A program made the position numbers and the translations under genes. Below the pieces are notes generated by a model. The model worked only from the letters and a program-made list of their open reading frames with translations. It was not told the origin of the DNA and ran no database searches. Of a stretch of DNA of 32,855 nt, positions 2,515 to 26,065 are shown in pieces. This DNA comes from a virus. The stretch is from the IMG/VR virus record IMGVR_UViG_3300033571_001841, positions 1 through 32,855 of that record; one strand, 5' to 3'. How positions within the stretch are numbered: position 1 is the stretch's first letter; every line of letters starts with the position of its first letter.

Positions 2515-2519
2515 GGATG

Positions 2520-2527
2520 TATAAATA
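2520..2527 (+). promoter_or_regulatory. T4-type late promoter motif (TATAAATA)
   Basis: A perfect match to the T4 late promoter core TATAAATA sits between the stop at 2514 and the gp25 start at 2533. The motif begins only 13 bases before the ATG, so a transcript starting at the usual distance would be nearly leaderless. Confidence 0.55.
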
Positions 2528-2532
2528 ATATT

Positions 2533-2982: not shown

Positions 2983-2983
2983 C

Positions 2984-3006
2984 CCTAAAAAAAGTCGGTT
3001 TTTAGG
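2984..3006 (+). terminator. Short hairpin after gp25 (weak terminator candidate)
   Basis: CCTAAAAA (2984-2991) and TTTTTAGG (2999-3006) form a perfect 8-bp inverted repeat around a 7-base loop just after the gp25 stop. The stem is AT-rich and no T-run follows it, so termination would be weak; an RNA-processing or stability element is equally possible. Confidence 0.3.
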
Positions 3007-3009
3007 TAT

Positions 3010-3018
3010 GATAAATAC
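3010..3018 (+). promoter_or_regulatory. Late promoter motif (GATAAATAC) upstream of gp6
   Basis: GATAAATAC matches the T4-like late promoter core and lies 18 bases before the gp6 start codon, leaving room for a short leader with an AAGAGA ribosome-binding sequence at 3023-3028. Confidence 0.5.
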
Positions 3019-3035
3019 TTAAAAGAGATATACCT

Positions 3036-6411: not shown

Positions 6412-9400
6412 ATGGCATCAAGAATTAGAACACTAAATTTTCTACCAGACGTTTTCCAAACACCTACGAACGCACAGTTTTTAGCCGCAACATTAGACCA
6501 AATTGTTGCACAACCAGAGACAAAAAGAATCGAAGGGTACATTGGTACTAAGTTTGGTTATGGTATAAACGCTAAAGATTACTATGTAACAGAACCAACA
6601 AAAACTCGTAGAGATTATCAATTAGATCCAGGTGTTGTCTTTACTAAAACTAACGAATCTGTAGCAAAAGATTTTATCAGCTATCCTGGTATCATTGATG
6701 CATTGAAACTTGAAGGTGGCGTTACTGACGATAATAATCGTTTGTTCAACAGCCAATTCTATTCATGGGATAGCTTTACTAACCTAGACAAGGTTATTAA
6801 TTATAACCAGTACTATTGGATTCCAGAAGGTCCTGCAAGGGTAGTTGTTTCCAACGAAACAGTTTACTACGCCAACGACTATGCAGTGTATGACCTACCT
6901 AATGGATATAATATTATACCGTTGACAAGTGCTGACAGTTTAGGTTCTACGAATCCTACATTAACATTGTTGCGCGGTGGTACTTATACTTTTGCTGTTA
7001 ATCAAGATTCACAATTTTGGATTCAAGGTGAACCAGGCGTTACTGGATTTAGTAACACACAACCTAACGTACAAACTCGTGATGTTTTAGGTGTTAACAA
7101 TAACGGAGCTAGTCAAGGCATTGTTACATTTACTGTACCTCCAAAAAATGCACAAGACGAATATAACTTCCCTGGTAACAACTTAGTAAGTTTAGTATCA
7201 AACCTCCCATTCGCACAAGTTAATGGTTATAGAATTTCTGATTTGACAAATGGAATCGATGGAGTAACATCACTTGATGGACTAACCATCATGTTCTATA
7301 ATACTGGATTGCCAAATGAAGTTGGCTATGTATCTAACTTCTTTGATTACACACCGTATGACGAAAACAATGATCTAACTTCATTGCAGACAATAAGTAT
7401 CACTTCTACTAACAGCTCCACAGACGCTATCACATGTAATAGCACTGCAAATTTAATAGTAGGAAATGCAATAGTATTCAATGGCACTCCTTTTGGTGGC
7501 ATATCTCAGTATTCAACAACATTACCTAACACAATTTATTATGTAGAGTCAATTATTAACTCTACTCAGTTTACAATTTCTACAACACCTAATGGATCTA
7601 TCTATCCATTAACTACAGACACCGGATCTATGACTGGGGTAATCAATCAAGGTCAATATGAACAAGGATACTATACTAATGTTAGTGAACATTTTTACAC
7701 AGTTCAACTCATCGGTGATCCTTCTGATCCTGTAATTAGATTAGTAGAAGCTTCTGCAATTCCAGTAACTCAAAAAATTACAGCATCATTTGGTGTTCAA
7801 TATGGCGCTAGAAGTTTTTACAGAACTGCCAGTGGTGCGATTCTAATTATTCCATATATCAGCGCACCATTAGATACACTATATTATCAAGATAGTAGCT
7901 CTCCAACTAAAGTAGGGGCAATTAGATTAGTAGAAAGCAATATCACTAACACATTAAATGTTGATACTGATATTATAGGTCAATCTCAATTCACTGCTAC
8001 CAATGGTATTGTATTTACTAATGGATTGAAAGTTGTTTTCCAAGGTGATGTTATTCCTAGTAACTATTTGACTGGTGAATACTATGTAGAAGGTGTAGGC
8101 ACTTCAATTGAACTATTACCTGTAGAGGATTTTATTGCGCCTGAAGGTTTTACTGCCACCACATATGTGCCGTGGGACGTTTTAGGTTGGGACTCTACTG
8201 ATTGGGAAGGCAATTCCTATATCCCAGTTACTCCTGATTACATTACTATTGCACGTAATAGTATAGATAAAAATGCATGGTCTCGTAGCAATCGTTGGTT
8301 CCATATTGATGTTATCAATGCTACTGCAACCTATAATAACAATCCAAACTTAGTTACATTATATGCAACTTCGGAATATAAGGCAAAGCGTCCTATTATT
8401 GAATTCTACCCTAACATCAAGATGTTTAATTCAGGTTCTGAGGGTAAAGCACCAGTTGACTATATTGACACTAGAACTACAGATGCATTCACATATGTTG
8501 CAGGTCAACAAAATTACTATCCAGACGTAGAAGTATACACTGCTTATACAGCTACTATAACTAGCACCAATTATCTTGCTGATAGAGTGATTCAAACAGG
8601 AAGTAACTCTACTGGTGTTTTTACTGTTGCTAGTGGCTACAATACTACAGGGTTTAATGTAAATGACTTAATTGTTTTTGACGATATAACACCGGGATCA
8701 GGTATTACTACCGGCGGATCATATTATGTTGCTCAAGTTGTTTCAAGCACACAGTTTAAAATTTCTGCAACAAAAGGCGGTGCTATAGTAATACCAGCAG
8801 TTTCTGTAACTGGTCCATATAGTTTTACATGGTCACCACTTAGTACAACAATTACGATAGCCAATGATGACATTTTTGGTAAGTTGAACGCACCAGGTGC
8901 GTTCACTGTAGGTCAATATGTTACTGATTCTACTAATGCTCTACCACGCAACACACAAATCAGCGCAATTTCAGGTACAACAACACTGACATTGACACTA
9001 GATTGGGACGAGGGTGGAAATTATTTTACACAACAAACTAATGCGTCTATCATTGGTACTGATACAACAAATGACAATTATGCATTGTTTGACGGGTCAA
9101 GAATTGTCTTTACACAAGACACTGATATTAACGTAAAGAATAAAATTTACATATCAAGATTCTCTACTATTTCAGGATCATCCGTACCAGTCATTACTCT
9201 AACTGAAGCTAGTGACGGTGAAGTACTCGCAGATCAACAAACTGTTGCTCTACGTGGATATTTCAATCAAGGAAAAGAATTTTGGTACGATGGTATCGAT
9301 TGGATAGAAGCTCAACAAAAGACAAATTTGAATCAATCACCATTATTTGATGTATTTGATTCTAACAACATTAGTTTTGGTAATTCTGAAATATATGTAG

Positions 9401-12400: not shown

Positions 12401-15400
12401 CATTGAATGATGGAGATACTATTTCGTATGGACAGTTCAATTTGAGCAACTTTGAACATGGTATTGTTTTTGATAACGTTACCTTGTTTGGGGATATTAT
12501 CTATAACTTGACAACTGGATTACGTCAGAATCGTATTGCATTGCGTGGTACAAAGAGTGCTGATTGGAATGGTACAGTTAACGCAGCCGGCTTTATCTAT
12601 AATCAAGATAATATCAAAGAATGGAACCGTACAGTTAAGTATACCAAAGGTGAAATTGTTAAGTACAAGAACAAGTACTGGATCGCTACTAAAATTATCC
12701 AAGCAAGCGAAATATTCAAAGAAGCTGATTGGAAACGAACAGATTACGATGAGGTTCAAAAAGGTCTGTTACCTAACTCAAGTACACGTAGTTATGAAAG
12801 TTCATTGTACTACGACATTGACAGGGCTAACCTAGAGAATGATGCAGACTTATTGAGTTTCAGTTTGATTGGATATAGACCACGTGACTACATGGCTCTT
12901 GCAGATTTGACTGATATTACTCAAGTCAACGTGTACAAGAACATGATTAAAAACAAAGGTACATTGAATGCAGCCTCTGCATTCAGAGGTGCAAACTTGC
13001 CACAAGGCGGGATTGATTATGAAATCTTTGAAAACTGGGCTATTAAAGCAGGTGAGTTTGGCGGTGTACTAAACAACAACTTTGTTGAATTTAGAGTTAA
13101 TGAAAAGAACATGACAGGTAATCCTGCAATCGTAGGATTGACTGACGGAGTATACAATGTAGGCGTACAACAAGAAGTACCATTGTATTCATTGTTTAAC
13201 TACGGAAGACCTATCACAAATGTTGACGTATTGCCCACAAATGAAGTCGATACTCCAAATACAATTTATCCAGATGCAGGTTATGTAAATTACAACGATG
13301 TAAAAATGTCTGCATTCTTCTATTCTCAATTGGGAGTAGCAGTTGACAAGAACGGTTCTATCGTACCTATTGAAGATTTCTTTGTTCGTGATTATGTATG
13401 GCTAGCTAATTACCTAGAGCGTTGGGAAGTATATACTCCTGTTGCTATGGGTCAAGTAGTATCAGCAAGAAATAACTTGAATGAAACAGTAACAATTACG
13501 TTCAACAAACCACATAACCTAAGACAATATCAACCGTTTGCAATTGTAAACTTTGATTTAGCTATCGATGGTTACTACCTAGCAACTATTGTTATTGACC
13601 AATACAGAGTGTTAGTAAACAGAACACTAGACACAAGCATCAAGACTATTACAGGTCAAGGCGTTGCAATGAAGTTTAGTTCTCAACGTGTTGCTACACC
13701 TGCTGAAATAGCAGACTTGCCACTAACTGACGCTGAGTTTAGAAAAAATACAGTATGGGTAGACACTAATGGTTCTGGTTCTTGGGGAGTTTATCGTAAA
13801 GGTATTAACTACACATTAACTAGCCAAGTAACAAAAACTTCTAGCCAATCGTTAGGTAGTGCGGTTGCGGTTGGTGATCAATTGGGTTACTTAATAAGTG
13901 ACGCTGACCTAGGTCAAGTGTATCGTTACACCTACAACGATCTATCACAATCATATGAATTAGTTCAGACTATTACCGGCAGTGCATCTTTTGGTAGCAC
14001 TATTAGCTATGCCGGTGACGTTTATGCAATTGCACAAACTACGGGTGGTTCTAGAACTGTTAAACTATATCAACTACAGAACACAACTACTAGTGACGAT
14101 TTGGTATTGATACAAACTATACCATACGAAACAGGTGCAACTACTTGGGGAACATCTATTGCAATGTCTGGAAATCTAGATTGGATCTATATATCTGACA
14201 TTGACAACAACACGGTTCACGTATACCAACGTTCTAATATATCAACGACCGCTGGCAATTTTGAATCTACAGAAACATACGTTATCAATGAAATAGGTAC
14301 TACCGATTTTACTTTGATTGGTGCAACATCTAACGATGTTGGTGTGAAGTTTATTGCAACTGGTGTAGGAACAGGCACTGGTGTAGCTACTAAGATTACA
14401 TACAATGTGGTAACTATTATTGATGGTGATGCATTGGGTTTAACGAACCCTGGTGACAGATTTGGTTACTCAATTTCTACGGACTATGACGGTGATGAAA
14501 TTGTCATAGGAGCTCCGTACAAAGATTACGGTGCTTATGATAAATGGGGCCAGTCATATGTATTTCAAAAGTTGTATCAGAATATAGAAATTCAGTACAA
14601 CACAATTGCACCTACATCACAAACATTGCAGTTAGCATGGACACCTGATACAACACAATTTACAGTTACTGCAACTAATGCTACTACAGATAGAATTACA
14701 TTGACTGTAGCAATGGATCCAATAGCAGATTTAGATAAACCAATCATATTTTCGGGTTCAGGATTTGGGGGAACAGAAATTGTCACTGAAAAAGTTTATT
14801 ATGTTTCTACTATTTCAGGATCTAATATTACTATCAAGCAAACCAGAGAAAGCACAACTGATGTTGCACTAAGCACGGCTGCCGGATTAACCAACACATA
14901 TGCTTATCTACAAGACGATACTCTATTTGTATCTAAGAATGGTACATTAGTTCAGGATAACAATTATGCTGTAATCAATGATACATTGATTTACACTAAC
15001 TCTTTAGATGCCGGAGATATTTTAAATGTAAGTGGTCATTTCATTACTATAGTTCAGACTCTTACTACTGAACAGACTCCTCAGACCGGAGCACAATTTG
15101 GCACTAGTGTTGCTACCAATATACATGCTAGTGAAATACTAGTAGGTGCTCCGTATCAATTGAATACACAAGTTTCTGAAGGTGTTGTTTATCGTTACAC
15201 TGATCCAGGAGTAGTTTATGGAATATACACTGGTACTACAGATTGTAATGTCACTACTACTAGAAAATTACTAATCAATGGATTCTTAACTTACATACCT
15301 GCAGGCGACGCAAGTGATGCCGCTGATGCTATTAATTCTGCACAGATTACTAATGTGGCTGCAACTAACATTGATGGTAAATTGGCTATCTTCTTAATAG

Positions 15401-18400
15401 ATAGTGATCTTGCACCTGCTTTTGAGAAATTATTCATAGGTGTAACTGACGATCAAACACTAACTGAATTGGGTATTCAAACATATACGTTGACACAAGA
15501 AATTTTGTGTCCACACACTGAAGGCCCCACACAATTTGGTACAGTAATAAAATTCAACGAATATGGTAGCTTTGTTGCAAGTGCTCCGGTAGGAACACGA
15601 TTCAGTGCAACTACATTTGATTTCATTGATGATGAAAATCAAGACAATGATACATTGTTTGACAACAATGCAACTAATTGGATAGACGAATCTCCTAACT
15701 TTGGTGCTGTTTACATGTTTGATTACATTTCACAGTACAATGAAAGTTTAGCTAATATTGGTAAGTTTGTTTATGCACAAAGCGTCAACTCACCTAATTT
15801 AGTGTATACTCCGTTTAATACGTATGACCAAGAAACTGACGTAACATCAAGTAATCAACCTCGTTACGGTACTGCATTAGACTTTAATAACTACGGTGTC
15901 ATTGTAGGTACTCCTGGTGATGTTGGCGCTACTACTGGTACTGAGTATGCAGGGTCTGCGACAGTGTACAACAACAGTTTGCGTGTCAAAGATTGGTCAC
16001 TATACAGATATTCTGCTCCTATAGTAGATATCAATAAACTGTTCAACATACAATTGTTTAGTGCCGAAACTAATCAAACACTAATCAATTTGGATTACAT
16101 TGATCCATTGCAAGGAAAAATATTAGGTGCGGTTAGAGAAAACATTGACATAGTATCAAATGTTGATCCGGCATCATATAATAATACAGCAACTGTTAAT
16201 GGTAATCTAGTATGGGGTGCAGATTATGTTGGTAAGATTTGGTTGAACACTAAAAACATGCGTTATGTGAACTATCATCAAAACGATGATGTGTCATATA
16301 ACAGTCAATATTGGGCAACATTGTTCCCAGGTAGTGATGTTGCAGTTTATAGTTGGGTTGCAAGTAACGTATTGCCTAGTAGCTATCAAGGACCAGGAAT
16401 TCCTCTAAGCATCAACTCATACTCAATACAATATGTAATAAATGAATCAGGTGCTCTGACTCCTGTGTATTATTTCTGGGCTAGAAACACCAATATCATT
16501 AATGATAGTAAAACATTGTCTGACAGTATCATTGCGTCATACATTGAAAATCCTAAAGCATCTGGTATTAGTTATTTCAGTCCTATACTACCTAGCGTTT
16601 ATGGATTATACAATTCAAATGAATACATCAATGCAAATGATAGCGTATTGCACATTGGTTTTGCAACCGGAACAAACAATGATGTTTCACACGAACAATT
16701 CAATTTGATACGTGCTGGATTTGCAAGTGATTTCTTACCTGGAGTTCCATTGTTGTCTAACGAAGCTCCTGACAGTTTATATGATAGATTACTAGACAGC
16801 TTGTGCGGTGTAGATGAAACTGGTGCAATTGTTCCTAACCCATATTTACCAAAAGCAGTTCAAACTGGTATATTGGCTAGACCTCGTCAAAGCTTCTTCT
16901 TTAATCGCTATACTGCGTTAAAGAATTACCTACAGTATGCAAACAGTATATTGGCTCAATTTCCAATCACTGAGATTCGTCAATCATCATTCTTAAATTC
17001 GAATGGTATTTTTTACGACACTGCTGACTATTGGGAATATATTAATTGGTGGTCTACTGGCTATGACAACAATACTAAGTCTGCACTACAAGTTTTAAAT
17101 TATGCAGATTTATCTACACTGTCTGTAGTAACAGGTACGATTGTATCAGTTACATCAAATAGTAACGGTAGAACAGAAACGTATGTATATGAATCCAGTG
17201 GTAACTGGAGACGTATTGGCCTAGAAAATGGTACTATCAGATTCAAAACATCATTATGGGATTATGAATCAGTTCGTTTGGGATTTGGTGATAATTTCTT
17301 TGACACTGATCTTTATGATATTTACCCAAGCGAAGAAACACGTAAAATTGTCCGTGCATTGAACGAACAAATTTACACTGATGACCTTTTAGTATACAGA
17401 AACCGTAGTTTAATTTTGTTGTTTGAATACATTCAAAGTGAAACTACTGAAAATCAAAACTACTTGCCATGGTTGAATAAAACATCATTCATTGATGTTG
17501 CTCATACTATTCGTGAACTACGTCCTATTGAAGTATTCCAAAGTGATAACCAAGATTTCTTATCCGGTTACATGAATGAAATTAAACCATACCACGTAGT
17601 TATTAAAGAATTCTTATTCAAATATACAGGTGAAGAAGTTTATGGTGGTAATATCACTGACTTTGACTTACCTTCAAAATATAGTGCGGCTCAAGCGCAG
17701 TTCATAACACCTCAGTTAGTATACGCTAATTCTAATGGTGTAAATCAGTTCACACCTGATGATCCTATATGGGAAGAGCAAGAATATTCACAATGGTTTG
17801 AGAATCATGGATTATCAATAACTGGTGAAAATGAAGTGCAGATGACCACATTAGCTTCATACCTTTCATTGAACACGAACTCATTTGCAGTAGATAATGC
17901 ACAGGGTTTCCCTATCAATGGTATACTAACAATTGGTACAGAGCAAATAGGATATTCATCTGTTGATAGAGCATTGAATGTTTTATCTGGTTTGACTCGA
18001 GGTGTAAACGGAACTACAATAGCACAGCATATTCCAGGTCAATTGATCTATATGAATTTACCGGCTGTTCTATTGTTAGATGGTGGTAGAGGATATGTAG
18101 AACCGCCTAAAGTAACAGCGTACATAGATACTACATTGTATCCTGCTCCAACTGTACCTGCTGTACTGACTGCTGTTATGAATTTGGATAGTGTATTAAG
18201 AGTTGACGTAGTTAATCCTGGCCAAGGGTATGCAGTATTGCCTAAGATCATAATTGATCCAGCAATAACAGTACCGTTTACCAGTGCAGATGTAAACATC
18301 TTCTCTAACACAATTCAAGTATATGCTCCATTATTGCAAACAGGTGATCTTGTTCAATACAAGGTAGGAACTGACAGTACTGCTATTGGCGGGCTAGAAA

Positions 18401-21400
18401 ATAATCAATGGTATTATATTAATGTTTTAGAAACAGTACCATCAGTTGTTATTGGATTTTACGATAACTACGCTGATTGTATAGATAATCATGATAGATT
18501 AAGATTGTTTGATGCAGGTACAGGTTCAAATCACACGATAAATCAAGGTGCAAAAGCAAGCGCAATTTCTACGTCTGCCCCGGTTAGAGAGAATGACATT
18601 GTTTTGAGATTCGACAGAACCACATACGATTCTCAAGTTTTAGAATGGTTAGCAGGAAGATACTATGGTGCTTTCTATGCTGGTACTTACTCAAATAGTG
18701 AGTCAGTATCCAGTTCATCTATATCGCTACAAAGCACACAACCTCCAATCGCAGATATATTGGCAAGTGCTCAAGGTGTTGCGTTTGAAATCACTGACCT
18801 TAGAAATGAACGTGTAGTAAATTACAGTTCATTCATACGTTATGTTGATAGCACATACGCCGCAAATGAAGTCATAAGACTAGAACTACAAGACGATGGT
18901 TCAGGTAATCCAAACGCATCAGGTGGTACTATTGGTTTCTATGTTGGAATGCCGATCAAGTTCACAGGTGATGTTGGATCTAGTGGTATTATTACTAATC
19001 AAGTTTACTACGTAAACAGCATCATCAACCAAACTGATTTTACTATATCTGAAAGCAGTACAGGTAGTCCAATCAAAGTATTGTCTAACTGGACAGTAGG
19101 TCCTGCAGGATTACAATGTTACGTTGGTGAAGTAACTGATACTGCGGTTATTACGGTTAACTATCCGGGCATTTTAAATGTAACTGCAACTCAATCAACT
19201 GTAAACAAATTGACAGTGCCATTGAATGTTACTGGTTCAGGTGGTACTGAAGGATTCTATATCAATCTACCAATCTTCTTTACAGGCACAGATTCTAATT
19301 TACCACAAAACGGTGTGTTTGGTGGTATTGTAGAAAACGAAGTATACTATGTTACAACAGTGGTCGACAACCAAACGTTCACCATGTCTGAGGAGAAAGA
19401 CCCACAAACATTTAATGTAACTGCAACGGTTGCTTCTACTGATACTGTTGTAATAGATGGTGACACCTCAAAGTTAACAGTAAATGAACCTATAATCTTC
19501 AACACAATGGTTGTTGCAGGAACAGAAACATCTTCATTTGGTGGATTAGTTTCAGGAACTACATATTACGTATCGTCTATTGTAAGCCCAAGTTCATTCA
19601 CTATTTCTACATCAATTAACGGGGCAATAGTTGCATTGTCTAATGTATCGGCTGCATCTAACACCTCTGCTCTATGCACAAGTCAGAAAAATACCTTAGC
19701 ATTAACAACTACAACAGGTAATAACATGGTTGTCAACGTTAGCTTGCCAGTAAGCCCAGGACAAGTTAATGGTCAGTTGTTCACCCTATATGAAACTTCA
19801 GGGCAATATCCGAGTCTAGACGGCACTGATGGTAATTTGATTACTAGGGGATTAGCCGCATTGATAGGTCAAAGAACTATTGATAGTGTAGTAGTTGATG
19901 TTAACGCAATTGTATTAACTAACTTTAATCCAGGCGATACAGTAGCATTGGGATTGACAAACATTTACATCAACATGCCAATTGAAATTTCAAATGACTT
20001 GTTCTATAACAACGTACTAGTTCCTGGAACTACATATTACGTAGTAGAAAAAGATACAATTGAAATTGAAGTCACAAACACATCATCTTCAACTAATGAG
20101 TTGACTTGCGATACTACTGAGCTATTATTCGCTGATATGCCAATCATATTCTCGGGCGCTGGTATTGGTGGTGCTGAAATTGATGTTGAATATTGGGTTA
20201 AGGAAGTTGTAAGTGATACTAGATTCACTATTACTAATACACCAGGTGGTTTAGAACTAACCTTATCTACTGCTAGTGGATTGATGACAGGTACTGGATT
20301 ACCTTATATTAAGGTTGCTACCAATATTGGAGATCCTGCAATATTCCCAGGTAACACACAGCAAAGTGCTTCTATCAGCGCCGCAAATCCAGCTGTAATT
20401 ACAGTCAGTGGAGCACCTTCAGACGGTGACACTGTTATTTTCAGAAATGGTGAAGCTCCTGCAGGTATGGCGTTGAACACAACCTACTATGTACGTAACG
20501 CAACCAACACTACATTTAACATTTCGTTAACATCTACAGGCTCGCTAATAAACACTTCGGCTGGTGTAGCTAAAACGTCAACAATGGTTATAACTGAGAC
20601 AACTACAATAGATCAAACTCCACTAACAGTTCCTCAATTTGATGTCAGCTACATCTTAGGTGGCTATAGAGTATTGATTACCAATCAAGGATCAGGATAT
20701 GCAGTTGATAATACAATTGTGATCCCGGGCACTGATATGGGAGGAACCACTACATTAAACGACTTGACGTTAACTGTAAACACAATTGATAGTGAAGGTG
20801 AAATTTTAAGTGTTATTTGTTCAGGTACAGTGCCAGGTGACAGTAATCAATATTACTTGAAAGTTATTTCTTCTACAGAATTTGAATTGTATGCAAATCA
20901 GTTGATGACAGTTCCTGTTAGTGGATTGAACTTACCATATGTAGGTATTACTGAAACTACTGTTACAGCAACACAATCATCGACAGATATTATTACAGTG
21001 TCAAGTACATCAGGATTTAGTGTAAATGATGCAGTAGTCTTTACTGGAAGTAGTTCAGGTGGAATGGTTCAAGGTCAAACATATTACATATTGGACAATA
21101 TTAATTTTACTGCAACTACATTGCAAGTTAGTGAAACCCCAAATGGTTCTGTATTTCAGTTAACAACTGCGGTCTCTCAAAATTATACAATGGCTAAGTT
21201 TGGTTCAGTTGCGTTGTTACCGGAACCATTCATATTCAATCAGAGCATTGTTAAGTATAACAACCGTGTTTATGTTTGTGTTGTATCAAATAACGACCAA
21301 GAGTTTGTATTTGGTAAGTGGGAACTATTAACTAGTGGTGATCGTAGACTAAATGCAATGGATCGTGTAATGGGTTATTATCAGCCTACCGTAAATATGC

Positions 21401-24400
21401 CTGGCAAAGACTTGTCACAGTTGTTTGAAGGGGTAACATATCCAAATAGCACATACTTAGGTAATCCATTCGCACCGGATCAACAATATGCAGTAGATAC
21501 TATTTTACAAGATCAAGCGTTCTATCCTACTGATGTAGATATACATGCTGTAGTTTGGGACGGCACTAGATATATTGCTGCCGCGGATATGTCTACATAT
21601 TCAAGTGTGTTGTCTAGTTTAACTACTGATGAATGGGCTATACAAAAACTAGCAAACACTCCGATCAATACAACGGATATGATTTATGCTGGTGGTTATT
21701 ATTTGTTAACTACAAATAACTCTGCAACACCTATCTTCAGAAGTGAAAATGGCATTACATGGACAACAAACGGTTACTTTACTCCATGGGGTTCAGTACC
21801 ATATGACACTACAACATATGACTTCACCGCACTAAGCATATCTTCATTGAATCTAAATTCAGTAGGATATAGAAATGGAATATGGGTATCAGTAGGAGAT
21901 GGCGTAATATCTAGTGATGATACTTACATTTGGAGACAACGTTTTACATTTGGTAATCCTCTACTAACTAATATACTATACGGTGTAAATGGTATTGATA
22001 TTACTGCATTCCAAGGCTTCATTGCAGTGGGTAAAGGTCAACAGATGGATTACTCTAGTGGCATTGGAGTTACAATCAATGTAAGCATTATATTAACTAG
22101 CACTGACGGAATTACATGGAATCAATTAGCACCAGTAAGTTCTAAAGGATTGTACGGAATAACACACAACGGTACAAACGCATTAGCAGTCGGTGAAGAT
22201 GGTGTAATCTATATTTCTAATAACGGTGGCAATTGGTTAGGCGTAAATGAAGTAACTGTTATTAGCGTCAACGCATCATCAAACTACCTAAACGTAACTA
22301 GCACAACTGGATTCGCAGTAAACGATCAAGTAGTATTCTCTACCTCGTTTAACGTGTTTACTGCAGGAACAACATACTATGTTAAGACTATTGTTTCTGG
22401 CACTCAATTACAATTGAGCACTACATTAGGAGGCTCAGTCGTCACATTAACTGCGGCAGATCCTTCTACAACCACATACATGTCAGCTATTGCTACACAT
22501 GATTTAGTAGACGTTCTTTATGCTAATGGTGTTTATGTTGCTGTGGGCGATAACGGTTACGTTATAACGTCAATGAATGGTTATGATTGGGCACAAAGAA
22601 CGACAGGTACATCAGAAAACTTGAATGGCATAGCATACAATGCAGATGATGATATATGGATTGCAGTTGGTGAGAACAATACAATTCTAGTAAGTTATAA
22701 TGACGGTACTGATTGGACTAGTTCTTCTGTCTTTGCCCCTCAAACAACAACATATGATGTTCAGGGCGCAGAATTTACATATGGTTACGGTCCAGAAGAA
22801 CTGGTGCCAGGTGTTGTAACTGACAACATTACTATGACTGTTGCTACACGTCCTGGTACTAATTGGGACGAAACGATTTATCAACATGTTGGTTATAATG
22901 TTGTAAGTATTGAATTAACTCCTACATCAGGTACACAAACTTTATACAGCTTTGACGTTGGCAACTTGTACAACATACAAAATCCAGCACAAATAGCAGT
23001 TTATGAAATCAATGGTTCTACTGGTTTAGGTACTGCTATTTACAACACAGTAGACTACACAATAAATTGGGTAGATTTTTCTATTACGTTGAACAGTCCT
23101 CTACCATTCACACCAGTGACAAATAAGCTACGTGTTGATATCTATGAAGTAGGTAACGGAAATCAATTAGTCAAGGCTAGCACCAAGACTGATCCAATTC
23201 GTATGCACGAAAATACTGGTTGGAATGAAATTTATGTAAACTGTAACTATTCTGGACAAATCTATCAAGGTTCAGGTGTTATAAGACCTGATACTAATCC
23301 AGTTGACGTAGAAGCCACCGAAACAGATTCAACCTCTAACACTATATTGTGTGCAAGTGTTAAAGATTTCTTCTTGAACGAACCCATCACATTCCAAGGT
23401 GCAGTGTTTGGTGGTTTAGCAGAAGATACAACGTATTACGTTAAAACTATCAGTTATGTAACTAACAGAATCACAGTGTCTACGACTATCAATGCAGGCA
23501 CCGGCACAGCAGGACCTACATTGGCATTGACTGATGCTACCGGTTCTATGAATATTATTATTAAAGTTGGTTATGGTGAAGTATGGACTACTCCAATCAT
23601 TTATCACAATGGTAACAAACTATTATTGGGCACCACTAGCACTGTTACTAGAACAAAAGCTAGCAACAATGCAGTGACAACCAATACGACCGGTGGAATG
23701 ATTGTAGGCGAACGAATTGTGTTTAGTGATACTATGTTTGGTCCAGTATTGGCTCCGCAGACAACATACTATGTCAAAACTATTATAGATGCAAATGAAT
23801 TTACAGTATCTGCGACATTAGGTGGACCTGTCTTAGCATTAACTGATGCAACAGGCGGTGCAGAATTCATTACTAATGATTATGCATTTGGTATTGCGGA
23901 GAATGGAATAACTGCATCTATCATATTTGCTACAGGTGACTATGATGATAATGTAGACTACATAACTTACACATTGTTTGGTGAAACAACACCTACACAA
24001 TATGGTTATACAATACCTGAAACTCAGTTGATTACTGCTGATGGTACAGTAGGTCCGTTCAGCTTAGATAATTATGTTTCTGATAACAACCCAACTAATG
24101 CGGTTGTAGAACTTAATGGTCTTCGTTTGATTAATACCACTGATTATACTATTGATGACAACACCAATGAAATTACATTCACTAGTGCACCAACATTAGG
24201 TGATGTAATAGCAGTGACTACATACAACCAAACAGATCGCCAATACTTGAATACACAATATGGTATCACCGGTATTACTGTTTCAGACATTGTAGACATT
24301 AACAATACTATCACACCTTACTCCGCAACTACTAACTGTACTAATACTACTTCAGGTACAAATCGTATTACATGTGTATCAACCGGCGGATTCGCTGTTG

Positions 24401-25896
24401 GTCAAACAGTAGAGTTCAAAGGTGCAACTGCATTTGGTGGTCTTGCTATTGACGGTACTGTATACTATATCAGAAGTATTGTTAGTGGTACACAATTTAC
24501 TATCGAAGATGAAGATGGTAACATTGTAACATTGTCAACTGCAACTGGTTTAGTCATAGCTTACGTAGGTGGTCAACAGGCAGTACGAGTTATTACTGGA
24601 TCTGCCCACAACCTCAGCGAAGGTGATCTTGTAAGAATTGATGGAACAGTTGGTTCTGTACAATTGAACAACAATACATACTATGTTCATGTTATTAACT
24701 CCACCGAAGTAGATTTATACTTAGATCAACCATATAACTCGGGATTGGCAGCAATTAACTATCCAGTTACTAATATTTCTTCATATGTATCCGGTGGATA
24801 TATATGGGCAAACAATTCATACACACTACAGAACTTAGAAGTAACTGATACTACAAATGATCCTATCTTAGGTAATTATTTAACTGTCAGTTCGGTTGAC
24901 CAATTAGTAGTAGGTACTCCTGTAGTGTTTACTGGTACCGTATTTGGTGGGGTATCTACTGATACTACGTACTACATTAAATCTTTGGTAAGTGCTACAG
25001 AATTTTCTATATCACTTGTGCGTTATGGTGATGAAGTAGTGTTAACAACTGCATCAGGATCTATGTATGTTACGCAGTGGGAACAGGACAATGTTGATAG
25101 ATTATGGGTAACGGTAAACGGTTATCGTGTACCTTCAGCTAGCTTGAGATTAAATCCCAACAATGAAGTCAGTATATTAACAACCATTGCTTCTGCTGAT
25201 GATGTTATCATAACAAGTATGATGCCAAGTGCAACACCTAACGAAGAGGTATTCTTAATCAACGTTAACCAACAAGGATCGGGTGTTGCTTATCGTGCAA
25301 ATACTCAAACTAGAACTTGGTTAGTAGCTCCATTGAGCAACACCGATACTATCATTTATGTAGATGACGTTACTAAACTTACTGACGTAGTTACGCAAGT
25401 TGAAACAGTTCCTGCAGTTGAAGATGGATATTTCTATATTGGTCTAGAAGCAGATAAGAGAATTATCTCTAGTGTTACTGTTTACAACAATACTACTAGT
25501 CAGACTATCTCTAGCAGTAACTATGAAATAGTGATAGAAAATCTATCTCCGGTATTGAAGATTACTGCAGGGGCATATATAACCGCAGGAAATTCACTGA
25601 CAATCACTGTGCTTGAAGGAAACTTGTTATACGTCAACGGAGAACAAATTAAGTTTAGTTCAGTAGACCTTGCAAATAATGCAGTTACCGGATTACAGCG
25701 TGGTACTAATGGTACCGGAGAACAAACGTTTATTCCGTTATATTCAGAGGTTTTTAGTATATTGTCTAACAACCAAATGTCAAGTGTGGACTATTCTGAC
25801 ACTTGGAATTCTGCGGTCTATAATACCGTTGAGGGTGACCCATTACAGATTAGTACTACGGAGTCAGCAATTTTCTTGCGAGGCGATGTTAACTGA
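6412..25896 (+). CDS. Giant 6494-residue baseplate/tail-fibre structural protein
   Basis: One uninterrupted frame of 6494 codons (roughly 700 kDa), directly after gp6, where T4 carries wedge genes 7 and 8. The first ~300 residues (SRIRTLNFLPDVFQT; ATLDQI) and a later stretch near 17,280-17,640 with SDNQDFLSGYMNEIKPYH match conserved text that I recall from large structural proteins of marine T4-like phages. Visible architecture: baseplate-type N-terminus; a cupredoxin-like segment (6952-7170); modules 1-2; a long Tyr/Asn-rich core; a Trp/Tyr carbohydrate-binding-like patch (12622-12750); a seven-motif FG-GAP propeller (13849-15975) with insertions; a second conserved core (16.0-17.7 kb); then a fibre-like array of beta modules to the end, containing an Asp-box propeller (about 21,500-22,720). 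No signal peptide or membrane segment is evident. No Shine-Dalgarno precedes the ATG; the leader is only TA-rich. The likely role is the outer wedge plus adhesive periphery, possibly replacing gp7/gp8/gp10-type proteins; exact equivalence is inference. Confidence 0.9.
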   Translation: MASRIRTLNFLPDVFQTPTNAQFLAATLDQIVAQPETKRIEGYIGTKFGYGINAKDYYVTEPTKTRRDYQLDPGVVFTKTNESVAKDFISYPGIIDALKLEGGVTDDNNRLFNSQFYSWDSFTNLDKVINYNQYYWIPEGPARVVVSNETVYYANDYAVYDLPNGYNIIPLTSADSLGSTNPTLTLLRGGTYTFAVNQDSQFWIQGEPGVTGFSNTQPNVQTRDVLGVNNNGASQGIVTFTVPPKNAQDEYNFPGNNLVSLVSNLPFAQVNGYRISDLTNGIDGVTSLDGLTIMFYNTGLPNEVGYVSNFFDYTPYDENNDLTSLQTISITSTNSSTDAITCNSTANLIVGNAIVFNGTPFGGISQYSTTLPNTIYYVESIINSTQFTISTTPNGSIYPLTTDTGSMTGVINQGQYEQGYYTNVSEHFYTVQLIGDPSDPVIRLVEASAIPVTQKITASFGVQYGARSFYRTASGAILIIPYISAPLDTLYYQDSSSPTKVGAIRLVESNITNTLNVDTDIIGQSQFTATNGIVFTNGLKVVFQGDVIPSNYLTGEYYVEGVGTSIELLPVEDFIAPEGFTATTYVPWDVLGWDSTDWEGNSYIPVTPDYITIARNSIDKNAWSRSNRWFHIDVINATATYNNNPNLVTLYATSEYKAKRPIIEFYPNIKMFNSGSEGKAPVDYIDTRTTDAFTYVAGQQNYYPDVEVYTAYTATITSTNYLADRVIQTGSNSTGVFTVASGYNTTGFNVNDLIVFDDITPGSGITTGGSYYVAQVVSSTQFKISATKGGAIVIPAVSVTGPYSFTWSPLSTTITIANDDIFGKLNAPGAFTVGQYVTDSTNALPRNTQISAISGTTTLTLTLDWDEGGNYFTQQTNASIIGTDTTNDNYALFDGSRIVFTQDTDINVKNKIYISRFSTISGSSVPVITLTEASDGEVLADQQTVALRGYFNQGKEFWYDGIDWIEAQQKTNLNQSPLFDVFDSNNISFGNSEIYVGTSFTGCKLFSYGIGSGLDDTVLGFPVRYSSIDNVGDLSFDVSLNLDTFDYVNGTEPVTQKVNTGYVFQYNNRIEYNRQLGWQTAVSPSIQYQIFEFNYDPLVPTTEFVCDIAKSSSDSTNWPTIEVYVNNVTVPHDEYTVVVGPDTTTVTLTTDPIIETVIQILVLSDQVSQTAYYSIPVNLNNNPLNADITVANLGDIRGQYQSIFYNNPNTTGEVFGPNNYRDLGNMVPWGDRIIQNSASMVLPGAFLRKQEHNLFNALMFNSREYVKFKNLLAYTVQNSDYTQRYDPATLLDDALDQITASKNDSQPFFWSDMLPNKAAYVSNTYSFANSLDVSIYPLTRVYDYTTANYYGVLVYLTRTALGVTTTQQLIKGQDYTISTTAPSLTVSLDLLPGDVITIKEYNQTYGSYVPNTPTKLGLYPAYTPEVILDSNYSTPTYFIRGHDGSYTKLYGEYDALTGLLTDFRDQTSLEFELRVYNNLKISSVIPIKEYEVVPGFFREIDYTYEQWLSIYSSGFLNWVGQNRLNYKIQFYNSNDNYSYNYYQSGNAINKAPISQGYWRGIYQYFYDTTTPNTTPWEMLGFTEMPSWWTGRYGPAPYTSDNLVLWTDLSEGIDWNNGDPVVIPQAVRDGLLEIIPVDSAGNLLPPIDSVVGAYNQRLFQRDWKVGDGAPVEFSYRRSSSYPFDLMRIMALTKPAQFFNLGVDVDHYKYNAEFNQYLVNNRSHLRMSDIDVYGSGTPVTSYVNWVVDYEKQVGINATTNITEMFNNMDVRLVYRVAGFTDKSLLKFYVEKGTPNSRNASLLIPDESYSVLLYDNQPFNRIVYSGVIVQINSTGGYNIFGNSQTNAYFKTLKPKYAGKYDTIEVEGLSVKVTPEHYSTEQLIPYNTTLYTAQEVSQFLADYGAYLISLGMKFEDTESGLEINWAQMIAEFLYWAQTGWAPGSIVTLNPSAKKLTIDKDSNIVQPLTIQQSNFVLNQNLYPIQTNDLSIVREGTAFSATALNDGDTISYGQFNLSNFEHGIVFDNVTLFGDIIYNLTTGLRQNRIALRGTKSADWNGTVNAAGFIYNQDNIKEWNRTVKYTKGEIVKYKNKYWIATKIIQASEIFKEADWKRTDYDEVQKGLLPNSSTRSYESSLYYDIDRANLENDADLLSFSLIGYRPRDYMALADLTDITQVNVYKNMIKNKGTLNAASAFRGANLPQGGIDYEIFENWAIKAGEFGGVLNNNFVEFRVNEKNMTGNPAIVGLTDGVYNVGVQQEVPLYSLFNYGRPITNVDVLPTNEVDTPNTIYPDAGYVNYNDVKMSAFFYSQLGVAVDKNGSIVPIEDFFVRDYVWLANYLERWEVYTPVAMGQVVSARNNLNETVTITFNKPHNLRQYQPFAIVNFDLAIDGYYLATIVIDQYRVLVNRTLDTSIKTITGQGVAMKFSSQRVATPAEIADLPLTDAEFRKNTVWVDTNGSGSWGVYRKGINYTLTSQVTKTSSQSLGSAVAVGDQLGYLISDADLGQVYRYTYNDLSQSYELVQTITGSASFGSTISYAGDVYAIAQTTGGSRTVKLYQLQNTTTSDDLVLIQTIPYETGATTWGTSIAMSGNLDWIYISDIDNNTVHVYQRSNISTTAGNFESTETYVINEIGTTDFTLIGATSNDVGVKFIATGVGTGTGVATKITYNVVTIIDGDALGLTNPGDRFGYSISTDYDGDEIVIGAPYKDYGAYDKWGQSYVFQKLYQNIEIQYNTIAPTSQTLQLAWTPDTTQFTVTATNATTDRITLTVAMDPIADLDKPIIFSGSGFGGTEIVTEKVYYVSTISGSNITIKQTRESTTDVALSTAAGLTNTYAYLQDDTLFVSKNGTLVQDNNYAVINDTLIYTNSLDAGDILNVSGHFITIVQTLTTEQTPQTGAQFGTSVATNIHASEILVGAPYQLNTQVSEGVVYRYTDPGVVYGIYTGTTDCNVTTTRKLLINGFLTYIPAGDASDAADAINSAQITNVAATNIDGKLAIFLIDSDLAPAFEKLFIGVTDDQTLTELGIQTYTLTQEILCPHTEGPTQFGTVIKFNEYGSFVASAPVGTRFSATTFDFIDDENQDNDTLFDNNATNWIDESPNFGAVYMFDYISQYNESLANIGKFVYAQSVNSPNLVYTPFNTYDQETDVTSSNQPRYGTALDFNNYGVIVGTPGDVGATTGTEYAGSATVYNNSLRVKDWSLYRYSAPIVDINKLFNIQLFSAETNQTLINLDYIDPLQGKILGAVRENIDIVSNVDPASYNNTATVNGNLVWGADYVGKIWLNTKNMRYVNYHQNDDVSYNSQYWATLFPGSDVAVYSWVASNVLPSSYQGPGIPLSINSYSIQYVINESGALTPVYYFWARNTNIINDSKTLSDSIIASYIENPKASGISYFSPILPSVYGLYNSNEYINANDSVLHIGFATGTNNDVSHEQFNLIRAGFASDFLPGVPLLSNEAPDSLYDRLLDSLCGVDETGAIVPNPYLPKAVQTGILARPRQSFFFNRYTALKNYLQYANSILAQFPITEIRQSSFLNSNGIFYDTADYWEYINWWSTGYDNNTKSALQVLNYADLSTLSVVTGTIVSVTSNSNGRTETYVYESSGNWRRIGLENGTIRFKTSLWDYESVRLGFGDNFFDTDLYDIYPSEETRKIVRALNEQIYTDDLLVYRNRSLILLFEYIQSETTENQNYLPWLNKTSFIDVAHTIRELRPIEVFQSDNQDFLSGYMNEIKPYHVVIKEFLFKYTGEEVYGGNITDFDLPSKYSAAQAQFITPQLVYANSNGVNQFTPDDPIWEEQEYSQWFENHGLSITGENEVQMTTLASYLSLNTNSFAVDNAQGFPINGILTIGTEQIGYSSVDRALNVLSGLTRGVNGTTIAQHIPGQLIYMNLPAVLLLDGGRGYVEPPKVTAYIDTTLYPAPTVPAVLTAVMNLDSVLRVDVVNPGQGYAVLPKIIIDPAITVPFTSADVNIFSNTIQVYAPLLQTGDLVQYKVGTDSTAIGGLENNQWYYINVLETVPSVVIGFYDNYADCIDNHDRLRLFDAGTGSNHTINQGAKASAISTSAPVRENDIVLRFDRTTYDSQVLEWLAGRYYGAFYAGTYSNSESVSSSSISLQSTQPPIADILASAQGVAFEITDLRNERVVNYSSFIRYVDSTYAANEVIRLELQDDGSGNPNASGGTIGFYVGMPIKFTGDVGSSGIITNQVYYVNSIINQTDFTISESSTGSPIKVLSNWTVGPAGLQCYVGEVTDTAVITVNYPGILNVTATQSTVNKLTVPLNVTGSGGTEGFYINLPIFFTGTDSNLPQNGVFGGIVENEVYYVTTVVDNQTFTMSEEKDPQTFNVTATVASTDTVVIDGDTSKLTVNEPIIFNTMVVAGTETSSFGGLVSGTTYYVSSIVSPSSFTISTSINGAIVALSNVSAASNTSALCTSQKNTLALTTTTGNNMVVNVSLPVSPGQVNGQLFTLYETSGQYPSLDGTDGNLITRGLAALIGQRTIDSVVVDVNAIVLTNFNPGDTVALGLTNIYINMPIEISNDLFYNNVLVPGTTYYVVEKDTIEIEVTNTSSSTNELTCDTTELLFADMPIIFSGAGIGGAEIDVEYWVKEVVSDTRFTITNTPGGLELTLSTASGLMTGTGLPYIKVATNIGDPAIFPGNTQQSASISAANPAVITVSGAPSDGDTVIFRNGEAPAGMALNTTYYVRNATNTTFNISLTSTGSLINTSAGVAKTSTMVITETTTIDQTPLTVPQFDVSYILGGYRVLITNQGSGYAVDNTIVIPGTDMGGTTTLNDLTLTVNTIDSEGEILSVICSGTVPGDSNQYYLKVISSTEFELYANQLMTVPVSGLNLPYVGITETTVTATQSSTDIITVSSTSGFSVNDAVVFTGSSSGGMVQGQTYYILDNINFTATTLQVSETPNGSVFQLTTAVSQNYTMAKFGSVALLPEPFIFNQSIVKYNNRVYVCVVSNNDQEFVFGKWELLTSGDRRLNAMDRVMGYYQPTVNMPGKDLSQLFEGVTYPNSTYLGNPFAPDQQYAVDTILQDQAFYPTDVDIHAVVWDGTRYIAAADMSTYSSVLSSLTTDEWAIQKLANTPINTTDMIYAGGYYLLTTNNSATPIFRSENGITWTTNGYFTPWGSVPYDTTTYDFTALSISSLNLNSVGYRNGIWVSVGDGVISSDDTYIWRQRFTFGNPLLTNILYGVNGIDITAFQGFIAVGKGQQMDYSSGIGVTINVSIILTSTDGITWNQLAPVSSKGLYGITHNGTNALAVGEDGVIYISNNGGNWLGVNEVTVISVNASSNYLNVTSTTGFAVNDQVVFSTSFNVFTAGTTYYVKTIVSGTQLQLSTTLGGSVVTLTAADPSTTTYMSAIATHDLVDVLYANGVYVAVGDNGYVITSMNGYDWAQRTTGTSENLNGIAYNADDDIWIAVGENNTILVSYNDGTDWTSSSVFAPQTTTYDVQGAEFTYGYGPEELVPGVVTDNITMTVATRPGTNWDETIYQHVGYNVVSIELTPTSGTQTLYSFDVGNLYNIQNPAQIAVYEINGSTGLGTAIYNTVDYTINWVDFSITLNSPLPFTPVTNKLRVDIYEVGNGNQLVKASTKTDPIRMHENTGWNEIYVNCNYSGQIYQGSGVIRPDTNPVDVEATETDSTSNTILCASVKDFFLNEPITFQGAVFGGLAEDTTYYVKTISYVTNRITVSTTINAGTGTAGPTLALTDATGSMNIIIKVGYGEVWTTPIIYHNGNKLLLGTTSTVTRTKASNNAVTTNTTGGMIVGERIVFSDTMFGPVLAPQTTYYVKTIIDANEFTVSATLGGPVLALTDATGGAEFITNDYAFGIAENGITASIIFATGDYDDNVDYITYTLFGETTPTQYGYTIPETQLITADGTVGPFSLDNYVSDNNPTNAVVELNGLRLINTTDYTIDDNTNEITFTSAPTLGDVIAVTTYNQTDRQYLNTQYGITGITVSDIVDINNTITPYSATTNCTNTTSGTNRITCVSTGGFAVGQTVEFKGATAFGGLAIDGTVYYIRSIVSGTQFTIEDEDGNIVTLSTATGLVIAYVGGQQAVRVITGSAHNLSEGDLVRIDGTVGSVQLNNNTYYVHVINSTEVDLYLDQPYNSGLAAINYPVTNISSYVSGGYIWANNSYTLQNLEVTDTTNDPILGNYLTVSSVDQLVVGTPVVFTGTVFGGVSTDTTYYIKSLVSATEFSISLVRYGDEVVLTTASGSMYVTQWEQDNVDRLWVTVNGYRVPSASLRLNPNNEVSILTTIASADDVIITSMMPSATPNEEVFLINVNQQGSGVAYRANTQTRTWLVAPLSNTDTIIYVDDVTKLTDVVTQVETVPAVEDGYFYIGLEADKRIISSVTVYNNTTSQTISSSNYEIVIENLSPVLKITAGAYITAGNSLTITVLEGNLLYVNGEQIKFSSVDLANNAVTGLQRGTNGTGEQTFIPLYSEVFSILSNNQMSSVDYSDTWNSAVYNTVEGDPLQISTTESAIFLRGDVN
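6952..7170 (+). other. Cupredoxin-like beta segment, copper ligands missing
   Basis: The segment LTLLRGGTYTFAV, then FWIQGEPG, then GVNNNGASQGIVTFTVP (residues about 181-250 of the giant protein) matches the pattern of cupredoxin-like domains common in marine proteins. Those domains usually continue into a Cys/His/Met copper-binding end; here the chain runs into a YNFPGN region with no such ligands, so it is at most a structural relic of that fold. Confidence 0.5.
7399..7638 (+). repeat. Beta module copy 1
   Basis: Copy of the ~80-residue module: STDAITCNST start, GNAIVFNG-x-FGG turn, TIYYVESI strand, TQFTISTTPNGS strand and a TGSMTG end. Carries a Cys after the first strand, as copies 7, 11 and 13 do. 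Confidence 0.75.
8587..8832 (+). repeat. Beta module copy 2 (divergent)
   Basis: Recognised by VNDLIVFDD, GGSYYVAQVVSSTQFKIS and a GGAIV strand, but the front end is degenerate compared with the consensus. Confidence 0.6.
12622..12750 (+). other. Carbohydrate-binding-like W/Y patch
   Basis: The pattern W-x(5)-Y-x-K-G-E-I-V-K-Y-x-N-x-Y-W followed by a downstream ADW resembles small CBM5/12-type or fibre-associated modules (W...Y..G..V.Y....Y.A...W). A similar segment recurs at 21229-21342. The assignment rests on the aromatic spacing only. Confidence 0.35.
14275..14403 (+). other. 43-residue TTDFT insert module
   Basis: The segment IGTTDFTLIGATSNDVGVKF followed by a GTGTG run is a short module that I recognise from many marine phage fibre proteins. 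Here it lies between propeller blades 3 and 4. Confidence 0.55.
14659..14910 (+). repeat. Beta module copy 3 (inside the FG-GAP propeller)
   Basis: ATTDRITL, KPIIFSGSGFGGTEI, KVYYVSTISGS and LSTAAGL follow the module order. It lies between propeller blades 4 and 5. Confidence 0.7.
15208..15500 (+). other. Insert resembling the flagellin hook IN motif
   Basis: Between propeller blades 5 and 6 lies about 95 residues with ASDAADAINSAQITNVAAT followed by NIDGKLAIFLIDSD, the INxAxI-x-x-V-x-A pattern seen in flagellin hook IN motifs and in some phage fibres. Similarity is by eye only. Confidence 0.35.
17860..18051 (+). repeat. EQI/GLTRG fibre module, copy A
   Basis: SFAVDNAQGFP, then ILTIGTEQIGYSSVD, then GLTRGVNGT: a common phage fibre module. 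It opens the repeat-rich C-terminal third. A GRGYVEPPKV / GQGYAVLPKI glycine-tyrosine pair follows at about 18,090-18,255. Confidence 0.6.
18880..19110 (+). repeat. Beta module copy 4
   Basis: GMPIKFTGDVGSSGIITNQ, VYYVNSIINQTDFTIS and a STGSPI strand; the front strand is poorly conserved. Confidence 0.65.
19177..19413 (+). repeat. Beta module copy 5
   Basis: NVTATQSTVNKL, NLPIFFTG, VFGGIVENEVYYVTTV and QTFTMSE follow the module order. It abuts copy 6 directly with the same NVTAT opening. Confidence 0.7.
19414..19686 (+). repeat. Beta module copy 6
   Basis: NVTATVASTDTVV, EPIIFNT, SFGGLVSGTTYYVSSIV, SSFTISTSINGAIVALS. Tandem with copy 5. A degenerate half-copy (NMPIEIS ... GTTYYVVEK) follows at about 19,939-20,052. 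Confidence 0.75.
20068..20295 (+). repeat. Beta module copy 7
   Basis: SSSTNELTCDTTELL, MPIIFSGAGIGGAEI, YWVKEVVSDTRFTIT, LSTASGLMTG. The TTYYV core is changed to EYWV. Confidence 0.75.
20368..20595 (+). repeat. Beta module copy 8 (divergent)
   Basis: NPAVITVSGAPSDGDTVIF, LNTTYYVRNATNTTFNIS and an STG strand. The FGG turn is replaced by an APAGMA loop. Confidence 0.6.
20959..21192 (+). repeat. Beta module copy 9
   Basis: TVTATQSSTDIITVSSTSG, VNDAVVFTGSSSGGMVQG, QTYYILDN, TLQVSETPNGSVFQLTTA. It follows a GSGYAVDN/NDLTLTV fibre segment (about 20,690-20,950). Confidence 0.75.
21229..21342 (+). other. Second carbohydrate-binding-like W/Y patch
   Basis: NQSIVKYNNRVYVCVVSNN followed by FGKWELL repeats the K/Y-N-N-x-Y ... 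W layout seen at 12622-12750, just before the Asp-box propeller. Confidence 0.35.
21535..22722 (+). other. Seven-bladed Asp-box (BNR-like) beta-propeller with one insertion
   Basis: Six Asp-box-like S-x-[DN]-x-[GT]-x-x-W turns lie at 21742 (SENGITW), 21913 (SDDTYIW), 22099 (STDGITW), 22216 (SNNGGNW), 22570 (SMNGYDW) and 22693 (SYNDGTDW), and a degenerate first one ends in DEW at about 21,630. Each is paired with a strand like GVYVAVGDNG or DIWIAVGENN. The fold is that of sialidase/YCF48-type propellers; no sialidase active site is recognisable. Module copy 10 lies between blades 5 and 6. Confidence 0.65.
22252..22485 (+). repeat. Beta module copy 10 (inside the Asp-box propeller)
   Basis: NASSNYLNVTSTTGFAVND, VVFSTSF, AGTTYYVKTIVSGTQLQLS, GGSVVTLTAADP. 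Its edges fall cleanly between two propeller blades. Confidence 0.75.
23308..23556 (+). repeat. Beta module copy 11
   Basis: STSNTILCASV, EPITFQGAVFGGLAEDTTYY, VKTIS, ITVSTTI, LALTDATGSM. Contains a slightly longer GTGTAG loop. Confidence 0.8.
23641..23871 (+). repeat. Beta module copy 12
   Basis: ASNNAVTTNTTGGMIVGE, IVFSDTMFGPVLAPQTTYY, VKTIIDANEFTVSATLGG, LALTDATGG. Confidence 0.8.
24328..24570 (+). repeat. Beta module copy 13
   Basis: SGTNRITCVSTGGFAVGQ, VEFKGATAFGGLAIDG, VYYIRSIVSGTQFTI, LSTATGL. A shorter fibre unit (HNLSEGDLVRIDG ... YYVHVINSTEVDLYL) follows at about 24,583-24,750. Confidence 0.8.
24835..25074 (+). repeat. Beta module copy 14
   Basis: NYLTVSSVDQLVVGTPVVF, TGTVFGGVSTDTTYYIKSL, TEFSIS, VVLTTASGSM. 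Last clear copy before the C-terminal module. Confidence 0.8.
25621..25752 (+). repeat. EQI/GLQRG fibre module, copy B
   Basis: LLYVNGEQIKFSSVD, then GLQRGTNGTGEQ matches copy A at 17,926-18,040 (TIGTEQIGYSSVD, GLTRGVNGT), closing the repeat-rich third of the giant protein. Confidence 0.6.
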
Positions 25897-25912: not shown

Positions 25913-26065
25913 ATGAGCAATAAATCCACAGAAACTACAGAAAAAACACACAAAAAGCCTGAATCCAAGCCTAATGAGCATGGGGGCTTTTACTTTTCTT
26001 CACATCTAAAGATTTTTGATCCAAACACCAAACAAGTTTTAGTTCAAAAAAGAGGCGATAACTAA
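25913..26065 (+). CDS. 50-residue small virion-associated protein (too short for usual gene finders)
   Basis: ATG at 25913 opens a 50-codon frame ending at TAA 26063-26065, sharing one base with the next ATG (TAATG). It fills the only sizeable gap in this part of the window. The first 23 residues are charged and Lys/Glu/Thr-rich; the C-terminal half contains GGFYFSSHLKIFDPNTKQVL. The part LKIFDPNTKQVLVQKR is clearly similar to residues 12-29 of the next protein (FLKIHDPNTGEILVDKK), so the two look like a short and a long version of one family. I recall similar small proteins in marine T4-like phages at this place. Function is unknown; a virion role is inferred from position. No Shine-Dalgarno is visible. 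Confidence 0.75.
   Translation: MSNKSTETTEKTHKKPESKPNEHGGFYFSSHLKIFDPNTKQVLVQKRGDN
25953..25991 (+). terminator. Hairpin with T-rich tail inside the small gene
   Basis: AAAAGCC (25953-25959) and GGCTTTT (25985-25991) are perfect complements around a 25-base loop, and the sequence continues TTACTTTTCTT-like. An alternative shorter stem uses AAGCC at 25967-25971. It may terminate or attenuate transcripts from the giant gene, or may be chance. Confidence 0.25.

Follow-up and report, generated by a model that had tools for sequence, protein, structure and literature searches.

The sequence analyzed here (the window) is the whole of IMG/VR virus record IMGVR_UViG_3300033571_001841, positions 1 to 32,855 (32,855 bases). 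It contains a giant gene for a virion protein, which is preceded by genes for two baseplate wedge proteins:

2533-2982, + strand: gp25-like baseplate wedge protein (Pfam GPW_gp25 and PHROG baseplate families)
3036-6401, + strand: gp6-like baseplate wedge protein (phrog_10646 and phrog_219; 41% identical across 493 aa to its PA5oct counterpart)
6412-25896, + strand: giant virion structural protein, a single ORF of 6,494 aa that holds all of the modules described below
26065-26685, + strand: 206-aa protein, orthologue of PA5oct gp357 (phrog_11259; 38% identity)

A 405-aa protein encoded at 26718-27935 gave a borderline match to Peptidase_G2, a domain of intramolecular chaperone autoprocessing that is typical of tail spikes and fibres.

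The giant protein matched phrog_10938, 'virion structural protein'. The gene order gp25-gp6-giant, with the giant gene directly after gp6, was common to the window and the jumbo phage PA5oct, in which a gp5-like hub gene is followed by two small ORFs on the opposite strand, the gp25-like, gp6-like, and giant genes, a small ORF, the gene for a 201-aa protein, and a gp10-like gene. In PA5oct, the homologue (gp355) carries the annotation of a virion structural protein by ESI-MS/MS. A core of approximately 3,000 aa was homologous to PA5oct gp355, RaK2 ORF070, and SCTP-2 gp140, with 27-30% identity by tblastn; these homologues, members of phrog_10938, are 3,300-3,860 aa long. Comparison of profile slices showed that aa 1-300, 450-2400, and 3000-3900 were shared with PA5oct and the C-terminal end weakly so, and that aa ~3900-6300, the region carrying 11 of the 14 modules, had no counterpart there. 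Although the core is homologous and the PA5oct gene neighbourhood is the same, no module was detectable in the PA5oct, RaK2, or SCTP-2 homologues.

The giant gene occupies the position of T4 gp7, directly after gp6, and its product is a virion component. Searches with three core profiles (E<=1) returned no baseplate chain among the PDB sequence matches. As these searches gave no sequence match to gp7, it is from gene position that we infer the giant protein to be the counterpart of a T4-type gp7. Within the giant protein, FG-GAP_2 repeats at window positions 13600-15900 (aa ~2400-3160) formed a propeller-like region that includes module M03 and had no clear counterpart in PA5oct, RaK2, or SCTP-2. 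The conserved core contained a weak CBM_5_12-like motif at 12619-12684 (aa 2070-2091; 13.4 bits, below the cut-off), and Pseudomonas phage vB_Pa-PAC2 has a homologue annotated as a chitin-binding type-3 domain-containing protein.

Copies of the module

The initial annotation had reported about fourteen copies of a module of approximately 80 residues, with one order of motifs, between 7399 and 25074. A motif search of the ORF located 14 copies, each with this motif order, spanning 7381-25095 in the window, and an HMM built from the 14 copies scored every one of them at 64-92 bits. The copies are listed below with their HMM scores; fractions give the number of giant proteins, among the 19 compared in the next section, in which the site is filled.

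M01, 7381-7659, + strand: 92 bits; insert in the N-terminal region; 9/19; empty sites seen
M02, 8569-8844, + strand: 69 bits; ~12/19
M03, 14647-14922, + strand: 70 bits; within the FG-GAP_2 region; 16/19; empty in L086-L088
M04, 18856-19143, + strand: 72 bits; 19/19; barrel in model
M05, 19174-19470, + strand: 72 bits; 19/19; strands in model
M06, 19399-19689, + strand: 79 bits; abuts M05; 19/19; modelled barrel, Z 8.8 to E1 FCCH
M07, 20053-20310, + strand: 92 bits; 18/19; folded alone in the model described below
M08, 20347-20607, + strand: 64 bits (20 when left out); most divergent of the 14; 9/19; empty sites seen
M09, 20947-21204, + strand: 85 bits; nearly all relatives; barrel in model, matching E1 FCCH and a phage tail tube at Z 8.7
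M10, 22243-22500, + strand: 81 bits; 7/19; flanked by two propeller-like xxVAVGxxGxIxxSxDGxxW repeats; site cleanly empty in 11 relatives
M11, 23296-23562, + strand: 79 bits; 16/19
M12, 23632-23886, + strand: 88 bits; 18/19
M13, 24325-24582, + strand: 84 bits; 12/19
M14, 24823-25095, + strand: 91 bits; 19/19
Diverged barrel adjoining M13, 24577-24804 (aa ~6056-6131), + strand: Pfam E1_FCCH, 25.4 bits (cut-off 29.5)

Recovery by an HMM, the check proposed in the initial annotation, held even when each copy was left out in turn: all 14 were found, with E values of 2.8e-8 to 1.5e-23 and 20-69 bits. Among the controls, 50 locally shuffled versions of the protein and the reversed protein, a single domain fell below E 0.01, at 4.4 bits. 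Since the shuffled scores did not exceed 4.4 bits, the T/S/G-rich composition does not explain the module matches, and the leave-one-out HMM together with these controls ruled out a chance or compositional artefact. Identity between modules averaged approximately 28% in protein and 43% in DNA, with a DNA maximum of 52%. The copies were thus as well diverged in DNA as had been claimed; this maximum ruled out recent tandem duplication, and the mean supported the repeated old duplication that had been proposed. Fourteen is a minimum count; diverged relatives lie near aa 4485-4552, 6055-6109, and ~3960-4040, and it is likely that the giant protein contains three further diverged barrels. No Pfam model recognized the module, and PHROGs and NCBIfam gave no family at the module positions beyond weak matches. 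It is well supported that the module family is real, that its fold type is known, and that it is nameless in the domain libraries searched.

Site occupancy, inheritance, and other carriers

The giant protein had 79 relatives in IMG/VR, nearly all of which had the gene as a single ORF. In relative L036 it appeared as two overlapping ORFs (6983-15724 and 15663-22901), as also in L099, which would reflect an indel, an assembly error, or a frameshift; in the relatives L049, L050, and L074, it was one ORF. For the site alignment, 18 complete relatives (5,797-7,757 aa) and the window protein were compared, giving 19 giant proteins. These had approximately 16 module sites in common, with occupancy ranging from 7/19 (M10) to 19/19 (M04, M05, M06, and M14). 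At the M01, M03, M08, and M10 sites, the relatives free of a module had intact flanks and a clean gap. The presence of M04, M05, M06, and M14 in every giant protein suggests that some copies are needed and not freely optional.

Between genomes, copies sharing a site were 43% identical, versus 28.5% for copies at different sites, and the nearest neighbour lay at the same site for 215 of 231 copies. In a quick tree of 207 copies (~78 columns), site labels required 26 changes and genome labels 188; the copies therefore group by position, a grouping that the initial annotation had put forward for testing. Of 237 giant-protein copies, none was closest to a copy from a non-giant protein within a limited sample of 314 non-giant copies, and about a dozen looked copied between sites of giant genes. 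Within that sample, import from other proteins was thereby rejected as the main source of the modules, and exchange between phages, which had been suggested as an alternative to duplication, did not hold as the main source. From the same-site neighbours, the site-grouped tree, and the lack of outside neighbours among the 237 copies, the best reading is old inheritance in place with occasional copying from site to site.

Such copying is also what a selfish or neutral expansion would involve, in which modules duplicate within the gene and are kept because they are nearly harmless. In line with this explanation, copies at different sites were 51% (L094 S01 and L090 S12b) and 54% (L083 S02 and L091 S13) identical, L096 carried a singleton insert, and occupancy varied between relatives. 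We nevertheless regard it as very improbable, because the modules have long been inherited at fixed sites with their barrel signatures intact at a mean between-genome identity of 43%, which suggests purifying selection on both fold and presence.

The wider distribution was surveyed in viral contigs with the strict DNA pattern FGG-x3-GTTYYV, which would miss diverged copies. At least 119 viral contig stretches matched, and all 119 listed contained HMM-supported modules. Among the matches listed, 556 modules lay in 136 ORFs, 89 of which were unrelated to the giant protein by module-masked BLAST and fell into ~11 families. Modules occurred in tail sheath proteins (phrog_10581, Phage_sheath_1C), so that the barrels are also found on contractile sheaths, and in tail fibres and a virion structural protein (phrog_5838). 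The sheath proteins at L160:2628-6575, L170:550-4449, and L177:1210-5142 (L177 assigned by similarity) were ~1300 aa long, with 1-2 modules in a long N-terminal region. Nameless proteins at L109:3-7424 and L158:2-5506 (-), which are possibly rod-like fibres, carried 24 and 21 modules, and a 2630-aa protein at L175:2628-10517 combined three modules with six CBM_5_12 (chitin-binding type) domains and BNR repeats. The tail fibre of Caulobacter phage KSC, a candidate carrier, failed the HMM. Across 257 billion bases from 85,000 genomes of bacteria and archaea, the strict pattern gave four matches and no module by HMM; this strict motif thus gave no indication of a cellular source.

Predicted fold and known barrels

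An AlphaFold2 model of M07, based on an alignment of 88 diverse copies, had a pLDDT of 94.5 and six strands. A second model, covering aa 4136-4940 (pLDDT 81.9), placed the same barrel in M04, M06, M07, and M09, in support of a single fold for the copies, which the initial annotation had proposed to test. The predicted structure of the module is therefore a beta barrel with six strands, of the E1-FCCH/P22-I-domain type. The Foldseek and VIA lists were headed by the FCCH barrels of the ubiquitin E1 enzymes UBA6 and UBA1 (UBA6 residues 204-292, Z 8.4, 80 aligned, 3.3 A). Below them came tail-tube domains of phages, residues 215-344 of P22 gp5 (Z 7.0), barrels of the EF-Tu type, and an endosialidase (4hiz, Z 6.5); values of Z 7-8.8 for a small barrel are modestly above background, and according to the tool's warning Z < 8 may represent a common arrangement. 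The closest models in BFVD belonged to proteins from uncultured phages and bore the annotations lectin-like, ChiC_BD, pectate lyase, tail fibre, and tail spike. Designed beta-trefoils and nanobodies in the PDB match lists were rejected as short compositional matches.

Pfam E1_FCCH (PF16190) was the best structural match to the modelled module, its ~80 residues corresponding to the whole module (Z 8.4-8.8). Unlike E1_FCCH of ubiquitin-activating enzymes, the module has no link to ubiquitin chemistry. None of the 14 copies reached the E1_FCCH Pfam score (E<=10), this family was absent from those listed for the 88 diverse copies, and its only sequence match in the giant protein was the diverged barrel adjoining M13. 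Because the curated score was not reached, the module lies outside Pfam E1_FCCH and is not filed as a member.

The P22 coat I-domain is, like the module in its predicted fold and with its empty sites, a six-stranded barrel inserted in a larger virion protein. In contrast to the many modules of a baseplate protein, however, the I-domain is present in a single copy, in a capsid protein of the HK97 fold, and has long D- and S-loops. The module profile found the P22 coat protein weakly (hmmsearch, E 0.025). Profile-profile comparison by hhalign with ten diverse coat I-domains, which were taken from a phage collection because relatives of the P22 coat in IMG/VR differed too little, gave 71% and E 3.7e-5, as against 0.026 or worse for unrelated control windows; among the four controls that scored better were a real module and likely diverged barrels. 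Common descent of the module and the P22 I-domain is thus supported but not proven, and since the capsid setting is absent, the host being a virion protein of the baseplate region, the module is not filed as a P22 I-domain.

In the procapsid, the I-domain of P22 contributes to contacts between subunits (PMC9965877), and the barrels might likewise be obligatory assembly contacts between baseplate subunits. The weak but controlled similarity of sequence and fold to the I-domain, together with the sites filled in 19/19 giant proteins, is consistent with this explanation. It is quite unlikely, however, given that half of the sites are empty in some relatives and that the homologous cores of PA5oct, RaK2, and SCTP-2 have no module at all.

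The barrel of the K1F and phi92 endosialidases (Pfam End_beta_barrel, PF12195) belongs to a tail protein that also bears a beta-propeller, and M03 and M10 of the giant protein likewise sit in propeller-like regions, but the sequence similarity is weak, with one or two copies matching PF12195 at E 0.0085 or worse. The siphophage tail-tube proteins of T1, FCWL1, and Mystique have a similar barrel (M09 and the Mystique tail tube had 24% identity in 72 residues), but, unlike the modules, these barrels are not scattered insertions. Phage capsid, tail, and fibre proteins may carry Ig-like domains as optional beta additions. The mode of use of the Ig-like domains is the same as that of the module, whereas the module's predicted fold is probably a barrel related to FCCH and EF-Tu domain II and not an Ig sandwich; Ig_7 matched 5 of 88 copies weakly (E 0.029), and the structural matches listed were FCCH, EF-Tu, and I-domain barrels.

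Proposed role

The initial annotation knew of no function for the module and suggested an adhesion or spacer domain. The first statement needs amending with respect to the fold type, that of the E1-FCCH, P22 I-domain, and endosialidase barrels; the second is partly supported, the spacer forming part of the explanation we prefer and adhesion a rival to it.

Across 139 diverse copies, Thr, Gly, Tyr, Phe, and Ser accounted for most of the conserved positions and no charged residue was invariant; Lys/Arg/His and Trp were scarcer in the modules than elsewhere in the giant protein. Conserved Gly, Tyr, Phe, and Thr without an invariant charge are easier to reconcile with an added structural domain than with an enzyme or one conserved binding site. 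Considering the insertion pattern, the absence of conserved polar residues, and the analogy with known insertion domains, we propose, with a probability of roughly 0.6, that the modules are autonomous barrels, inserted as spacer or decoration domains that enlarge the periphery of the baseplate. Optional occupancy, several virion hosts, and the lack of modules in cultured homologues fit such domains. Each barrel would fold alone and could enter surface loops of an assembly protein, leaving the core undisturbed. The barrels of aa 3900-6300, together with the propeller-like repeats there, would then form an enlarged baseplate periphery of spacer, decoration, and stabilizing material, with new copies arising mainly by copying between sites within the same gene and then being inherited in place.

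Alternatively, each barrel may carry a loop-borne, low-affinity site for host polysaccharide, the many copies, present in several subunits of each virion, together providing polyvalent and reversible adsorption. The barrel of the K1F endosialidase carries one of three polysialic-acid binding sites and is a hotspot of host discrimination (PMC12632334), and since that barrel and its phi92 counterpart are similar in fold to the modelled module, glycan contact is a serious rival. The chitin-binding domains and BNR repeats accompanying the modules in L175, as well as the lectin-like, ChiC_BD, pectate lyase, and tail fibre or spike annotations of the BFVD neighbours, also favour adhesion. However, a conserved polar or charged cluster was absent across the 139 diverse copies, End_beta_barrel matched one or two copies weakly, and modules also occur in tail sheath proteins, which are usually without receptor contact; we consider adhesion possible but improbable. 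In a broader and doubtful version, the module would be a branch of a phage-wide superfamily of insertion barrels that includes the P22 coat I-domain and the tail-tube and endosialidase barrels, a second add-on of general use in phages beside Ig-like domains, present in more than 80 copies per virion if there are six subunits, and forming a polyvalent, glycan-contacting collar of the baseplate.

Returning to the spacer or decoration barrels, the module behaves like known phage insertion domains such as the P22 I-domain and the Ig-like domains. The giant baseplate proteins of large uncultured phages are left nameless by annotation pipelines, and the profile built from the giant protein and its relatives recognizes the module in giant proteins and in ~11 further families among the matches listed. 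The naturally empty and filled sites offer a direct system for testing the effect of added barrels on particle stability, reach, and adsorption. If the link with the P22 I-domain is true, one insertion domain would be common to head and tail proteins.
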